A DNA stretch of 64,000 nucleotides, taken from assembly GCF_023555385.1 (NCBI RefSeq), contig NZ_JAJSED010000001.1, forward strand, positions 248,001 through 312,000. Reading direction: 5' to 3'. The notes beneath the pieces are model-generated. The model was not told where the DNA came from, did not search any database, and saw only the letters and a list, made by a program, of their open reading frames with translations. Positions 12,492 to 62,149 of the stretch are shown piece after piece; position 1 is the stretch's first letter, and each line of letters opens with the position of its first letter. The translations under genes were made by a program, and so were the position numbers. Source of the DNA: Guyparkeria hydrothermalis. GTDB taxonomy: Bacteria > Pseudomonadota > Gammaproteobacteria > Halothiobacillales > Halothiobacillaceae.

Positions 12492-12584
12492 TCCAGGCTT
12501 TTCAGGGGACCAGTCGGGCGGGCCGTCCCGCCGGGGTGAACATCGCCCGGGGTCGTCCCCGGTGCGGTCGGATCGATCCCGTGG

Positions 12585-16831: not shown

Positions 16832-16927
16832 GATCTCCCGGGCTTTTGTCCCGCCGTGTAACCCCTCCGCTGGAGAGGTCGGCGACTCTCGGACCAGTCA
16901 CCCGCCGTAGCGGATCGGAACCCTAGT
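16832..16927 (-). promoter_or_regulatory. Guanidine-I (ykkC) riboswitch
   Basis: Read on the minus strand, the leader has, in order, CTAGGGTTCCG, then GGCGGGTGACTGGTCCGAGA, a variable stem, then ACACGGCGGGACAAAAGCCC followed by GGGAGA. These are the conserved segments of the ykkC subtype 1 aptamer, which binds guanidinium. It sits in the 5' UTR of the transporter/carboxylase operon. No separate terminator with a T-run is clear between aptamer and start codon; the expression platform could work at translation, since GGAGAG before the ATG is the ribosome site. Confidence 0.95.
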
Positions 16928-17003
16928 CGCCCATTGAATCCATGTTGTAGACGGTGTCCGGAACCGCACGTCCCGACTCCTTGCGCGTCACGGTTACCGG
17001 TAT

Positions 17004-58093: not shown

Positions 58094-61789
<3,696 letters not shown>

Positions 61790-61808: not shown

Positions 61809-61850
61809 ATCGCCCGGCGAGCCACGCAGCGGACGTGGCGCCGGGACGAT
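61809..61850 (-). other. Strong hairpin just before the metH start
   Basis: ATCG, CCCGGCG and CCACG on one side pair with CGTGG, CGCCGGG and CGAT on the other around a seven-base loop, giving 16 pairs with only small bulges. It ends 20 bases before the metH ATG and could affect translation. Confidence 0.6.
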
Positions 61851-61872
61851 GGGTGAATGGTAGGGAAGCTCG

Positions 61873-62120
61873 GCACGAATGCCATGTCACTCTGGCCAGG
61901 CGAGCCGTTCGTGATCAAGGCGCGTTGTCGCCGGCGTGCCGGTGGCCACGGCAAGACGACGCAACACCGAGCACGGGCGGCTCGCCTGGCCCCGTTGGGC
62001 GTGTCTTGAGCCGGGCATCTGCTGCGTTGCCGTCCTTGGAAAGAGAATGACTCTTCCGCGGCGGACGGTCGCCTTGCATCCGCCCGGCTCAAGGCACGCA
62101 GAGCGGTATGGCATTCGTGC
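61873..62120 (-). other. Large cloverleaf-like inverted-repeat element in the metH leader
   Basis: Three perfect long inverted repeats are arranged as an outer stem with two inner arms. Outer: GCACGAATGCCAT (61873-61885) with ATGGCATTCGTGC (62108-62120). Arm B: GGCCAGGCGAGCCG (61894-61907) with CGGCTCGCCTGGCC (61978-61991). Arm C: CTTGAGCCGGGC (62005-62016) with GCCCGGCTCAAG (62082-62093), extended by GCGTG/CACGC to 18 pairs. Both arms have further inner pairing. No gene is seen in 61790-62182. No match to B12, SAM or SAH aptamers that I know. Confidence 0.75.
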
Positions 62121-62143
62121 AGAGTTTCCCCTAAAAGCCCGGA

Positions 62144-62149
62144 AGTATA
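62144..62149 (-). promoter_or_regulatory. Possible -10 box for metH leader transcription
   Basis: TATACT on the minus strand, preceded by GT, would start a transcript about 62137 that runs through the folded element into metH. No good -35 box was found. Confidence 0.4.

Follow-up and report, generated by a model that had tools for sequence, protein, structure and literature searches.

A probable MITE-like mobile element with a conserved, folded two-hairpin core in the metH leader of Guyparkeria hydrothermalis

Does the strongly folded stretch in front of metH in Guyparkeria hydrothermalis regulate this gene, or did it land there as a mobile element? The first-pass annotation of this DNA described a cloverleaf-like element and considered a leader RNA sensing a methionine-cycle metabolite or cobalamin, a small RNA, or a palindromic insertion of REP or MITE type. 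The window analyzed here is a stretch of 64,000 nucleotides (C1:248001-312000 in G000, the 2.39-Mb source genome), to which positions refer unless a locus is named. We consider it probable, at roughly 80%, that the sequence is a non-autonomous MITE-like element with a conserved folded two-hairpin core, moved in trans and recently arrived at metH. Its dispersal, its empty sites, its target duplication, its covarying fold, the class-wide occurrence of its core and the two kinds of ends around this core are directly supported. The folded structure is real, and its outer stem, its two arms and the metH-proximal hairpin are all present. The features are as follows, R1 being a covariance model of arm A.

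58094-61789, minus strand: metH coding sequence; the start at ATGACTTCG was chosen and is conserved in relatives
61809-61850, minus strand: separate metH-proximal hairpin, outside the element
61860-61863: GTAG flank, presumed to be one half of an imperfect target duplication
61864-62129, minus strand: whole mobile element, 266 nt; the strand with arm A first is the sense of the metH mRNA
61864-61894, plus strand: terminal inverted repeat, one end, GGAAGCTCGGCACGAATGCCATGTCACTCTG
61892-61993, plus strand: arm B, a hairpin homologous to arm A and inverted (R1, 50 bits, L001:1543-1644)
61991-61999: CCC-nnn-GGG link joining arms A and B (columns 139-146 of the A1 alignment)
61997-62101, minus strand: arm A, a long hairpin with bulges, the basis of R1 (101.4 bits, L001:1648-1752, and covariation)
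62099-62129, minus strand: terminal inverted repeat, other end, GGAAACTCTGCACGAATGCCATACCGCTCTG
62130-62134: flank C-CTAA, opposite side of the presumed target duplication
62144-62149, minus strand: TATACT, likely metH -10 box, 14 nt before the element

In the element, a long outer stem encloses two hairpin arms. The outer stem, first described as 13 bp long, exists but has about 31 nt per arm, with 84% complementarity across 32 nt. Each inner arm measures about 102-105 nt, and the likeness between the two noticed earlier is a true homology in inverted orientation. The predicted folding energy of the 266-nt element is -168.3 kcal/mol on the minus strand (z -11.0) and -176.1 kcal/mol on the plus strand (z -11.2), values reached by 0 of 200 shuffles in either case, so that pairing beyond chance is confirmed. 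In the terminal repeats of the Guyparkeria elements a transition pair recurs near the arms, e.g. ATACCG versus ATGCCA, with the result that the folded outer stem carries an A·C and a G·T at constant positions. Elsewhere in the window, Rfam models recognize a Guanidine-I riboswitch (16833-16937, minus strand, 99.5 bits) and, about 4.3 kb from it, a Guanidine-II (mini-ykkC) riboswitch (12518-12562, minus strand, 37.4 bits).

The metH leader, on the minus strand, spans about 62150 to 61789. It was compared in ten members of Guyparkeria, including the source genome (L067-L076). TTATACT is conserved in all ten leaders, and a consensus promoter scan gave no report of the TATACT box. The site of the element is empty in 7 of the 10 leaders, among them that of the closest relative (L068, metH 96% identical); L070 carries a different, one-arm copy and L076 a degenerate one. 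The metH copy therefore arrived after divergence from these relatives, and the site behind the conserved TTATACT has been struck more than once. The element at metH is thus a recent insertion just behind the metH promoter. The 16-pair hairpin directly before metH is present as annotated but does not belong to the element, because comparable hairpins occur in congeners with an empty site; it is weakly significant on its own (z -1.8), and the folding scores in the congeners are individually weak. Although the element sits in the metH 5' leader and folds strongly, a riboswitch or other regulatory RNA sensing SAM, SAH, methionine or cobalamin can practically be discounted, and the reading as a conserved metH regulator is already refuted, since the element is missing from most relatives' metH leaders, has copies next to unrelated genes and corresponds to no family in Rfam at the gathering score, either in the window or in 20 loci of other genera. 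The insertion may plausibly alter metH expression; a ligand-sensing role is unsupported.

Further copies were found in the same genome by BLAST; it holds about 10 in all. With at most 2 mismatches, the end pattern matches 9 forward and 9 reverse arms in the source genome and 77 and 78 arms in one congener (congeners hold up to about 77 copies), and the reversed pattern used as control gave 0 matches in the genus. From Guyparkeria loci, 120 elements were extracted. Their usual length is 265-266 nt, with arm-less variants of about 92 nt, one-arm variants of 161-199 nt and others of 327-359 nt. Longer forms of 338-350 nt, with some 70-85 extra bases, lie at L054, L058, L133, L167 and L168, and the arm-less 92-nt copies at L129 (7557-7648) and L166 (499-590) have their terminal repeats nearly back to back. 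Either arm may be kept in the short copies, no preference being seen. Identity between copies at different loci reaches 98%, and 57 full-length elements fall into three subfamilies with 63-78% consensus identity. A simple gene caller could assign a position to 109 copies; nearly all of these (107) are intergenic, and their orientation relative to the neighbouring genes (35 sense, 24 opposite) is not significant. Identical tetranucleotides flank 30 of the 120 copies, against 9 expected with shuffled partners, and other duplication lengths are seen in 0-4 copies only. These target duplications are mainly CTAG, CTTG, TTAG and CTAA, i.e. 4 bp of YTAR type; that of the metH copy is imperfect (GTAG / CTAA). 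Copies at unrelated loci with terminal repeats had been named beforehand as the mark of a mobile repeat, and the palindromic, MITE-like insertion is the proposal of the first-pass annotation that these data bear out. As in a MITE, the element is shorter than 500 bp and lacks a transposase gene (266 nt, with a folded non-coding alignment), and it has terminal inverted repeats of about 31 bp, a target-site duplication and empty sites.

The IS5 group of insertion sequences combines GG-type ends with a YTAR-like target duplication. A 1211-bp IS found in Halothiobacillaceae (L229) has perfect GGAAGGTCTGATCAAT ends, is flanked by TTAA and contains an ORF matching NF033581, the IS5-family transposase. 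The first 10 end bases, GGAAGGTCTG, are common to this IS and the element, as is the YTAR-type target; in contrast to the element, L229 encodes a transposase and lacks the core. The GG-type outer stems (GGAACCTCTGATCAATTAT...) agree with L229 at 18 of 30 bases, and at 14 of the first 16. Both the GG-type ends and the 4-bp YTAR duplication are as expected of an IS5-derived element. A search for an IS with GTACTCTTTCAAGG ends found none. Within Guyparkeria, no IS5-type transposase with the element's ends was found: DDE_Tnp_1 occurs in 1 of 11 genomes, as one IS in G002 with different ends, DDE_Tnp_1_2 is absent from the genus, and the Guyparkeria loci examined offered no convincing case of matching ends around a transposase-sized interval. 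To judge from ends and target, the mobiliser in Guyparkeria is most likely an IS5-type transposase recognising GGAAnSTCTG ends. Transient IS5 visitors may have mobilised the copies, or the models used may have missed the enzyme. The paired, inverted intergenic hairpins resemble REPINs in outline, but mobilization as a REP/REPIN-like element, by a Y1 (RAYT) transposase, is very unlikely, as the source genome has no Y1_Tnp and repeats of about 30 bp with a 4-bp duplication point to a DDE enzyme.

The fold itself is maintained. Covariation, which the annotation had proposed to look for upstream of metH, appears across the copies of the element. RNAalifold predicts 88 pairs from the 57 full-length elements, and 50 of these pairs show compensatory changes. 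Standard pairs fill 96.8% of the pair cells, against 33-40% when the partners are slid, and the covariation score is 0.448, against 0.163 for shuffled and at most 0.091 for slid partners. Between the subfamily consensus sequences, both partners have changed in 16-32 of 90 pairs without loss of Watson-Crick pairing, against only 3-8 pairs with a one-sided change.

The core of the element extends far beyond this genus. At a cut-off of E <= 0.01, with E-values that are rough, R1 has hits in 95 of 369 gammaproteobacterial genomes, which represent 77 of 272 genera. An inverted partner arm adjoins the R1 match, 3-25 nt away, in 22 of 27 loci outside Guyparkeria. This core measures about 206 nt, usually 204-209 nt. 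In most of these loci an outer stem of about 30 bp surrounds it, and the sequence of that stem varies strongly from one lineage to another. A class alignment of 37 elements, with a median identity of 48%, has 91.7% standard pairs in its pair cells (38-40% when slid), and 95 of 108 pairs are changed on both sides in some sequence. In the same alignment, the unpaired A's of the motifs GCAAGGCG and GCAACGCC and the CCC-nnn-GGG link are each at least 90% conserved. No BLAST match was obtained in phages, no exact pattern match in viral contigs and no match of any kind in E. coli genomes; in plasmids there were partial matches only (arm model 47-62 bits), in records of Azotobacter, Halomonas and Pseudomonas aeruginosa. 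A cobalamin riboswitch (L261 1179-1362, minus strand, 106.6 bits) adjoins one class-wide copy and lies outside it.

Long DNA palindromes can become more perfect through template switching. The covariation could thus come from palindrome correction, i.e. template switching between the arms in replication, the core being neutral. The outer stem behaves accordingly, with no strand bias in the class set (44 G·T versus 33 A·C), and neither does arm B show one (63 versus 71). Arm A, read on the A-first strand, does: G·T exceeds A·C by 103 to 21 cells, by 21 to 5 columns and, counted by element, by 29 elements to 1, these class-set figures depending on an orientation set by the stronger R1 arm and on sequences that are related. 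The same excess is seen in Guyparkeria alone (100 versus 19); here as in the class set, the pairs were those derived from an RNA energy model. Since a purely double-stranded palindrome would not be expected to show such a bias, that of arm A suggests that one strand is under selection in folded form, as RNA or ssDNA. Correction would also be expected to erase the bulges, which are at least 90% conserved at a median identity of 48%, and length is nearly constant across genera. For these reasons we regard a neutral, self-correcting core as unlikely.

The ends differ in kind. Besides the GG-type outer stems, others are of GTR type at CTAG (GTACTCCGACAAAG..., GTGTCCCTTAACAG...) and resemble the ends of IS630-type ISs. 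Two such ISs, L306 and L322, have ends of about 30 bp at CTAG like the outer stems of L276, L257 and L288; unlike these elements, they encode a DDE_3 transposase. L257 and L288 agree with L322 at 21 of 30 bases, and L276 with L306 at 20 of 30, in each case between different genomes. Most other comparisons of ends give 4-17 of 30, with 20 for L257 and L288 against the IS630 end L314 and 20 for L263 against L322. IS and element come from different genomes, and the GTR-type matches would accordingly be read as kinship of ends rather than as a demonstrated pairing. A copy of the core in the source genome itself (L273, G000:C1:1654600-1656000, at 546-752) has quite different ends, GTGTCCGCCGCCGTTGATTC; therefore both end types occur in one genome. 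As far as comparison of sequences can tell, conservation lies in the core and variation in the ends.

This pattern could mean that the core is a functional module of structured RNA or ssDNA whose ends have been exchanged between IS5-type and IS630-type systems. In its favor, one and the same core lies between either type of end, the targets (CTAG/YTAR) being related, arm A has a polarity and the bulges are conserved; on the other side, the exchange would have to be deduced across different genomes and has never been caught directly. We rate such an exchange as possible, at somewhat less than even odds. Put for the class as a whole, a core functional on one strand may have spread through Gammaproteobacteria by way of unrelated IS5 and IS630 ends with its fold kept, a proposal that we advance tentatively.

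For the MITE-like element at metH, we propose the following. Terminal inverted repeats of about 30 bp would flank the folded two-hairpin core of about 206 nt, and an IS5-type transposase (elsewhere an IS630-type one) would move the element in trans, duplicating a 4-bp YTAR target. With an insertion just behind its promoter, the metH mRNA should begin with a very stable cloverleaf, and any effect on metH would be a by-product of insertion, not ligand sensing. The folded core would owe its upkeep to selection on a single strand (RNA or ssDNA); palindrome correction is the less likely reason. The transposase, the transcription and the selection on a folded single strand as the reason for upkeep of the core are what we infer here. 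It becomes testable why a gene-less element keeps its fold, where its different ends come from, and whether it acts as RNA or as ssDNA. The model can also serve in the annotation of repeats that break draft assemblies and can be mistaken for riboswitches.

MITEs, IS5, IS630 and REP elements are already known. MITEPsy1 of P. syringae, 100 nt long, is described (PMC3189936) as having the end GGAAGGTCTG and a 4-nt CTAG or YTAA target duplication, lacking coding sequence and being tentatively IS5-related. It shares end and target with our element; its 100 nt are too short for the two-arm core, and its size is closest to the arm-less Guyparkeria copies of about 92 nt. QMITE1 and QMITE2 of Coxiella and the Correia element of Neisseria are small, with terminal repeats and folding transcripts, and some yield sRNAs or are cut by RNase III (PMC5896051, PMC10969869); in the portions of these papers that we cite, they are described for single genera, with neither a core common to many families nor two kinds of ends. 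REP and REPIN sequences with their RAYTs (see PMC3116915, PMC2817692) are likewise intergenic, with inverted hairpins and high copy number, but they are much shorter, and their Y1 transposase is the one missing from the source genome. Neither Rfam nor the open-access literature searched yielded a core kept across many gammaproteobacterial families and shared by two kinds of ends, and matches to words of the core sequence in open-access papers look unrelated; the core may conceivably have been described for a single genus under some local name, in subscription papers or in ISfinder. Bacterial MITEs are usually seen as worn-down copies of one IS, with an interior of no importance. Here the interior is the conserved part, a cloverleaf that covaries in roughly one in four of the sampled gammaproteobacterial genera, and the ends differ, resembling those of two unrelated transposase families. 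If this reading is true, the element would be a mobile, structured, non-coding one that switches its mobiliser and retains its fold.
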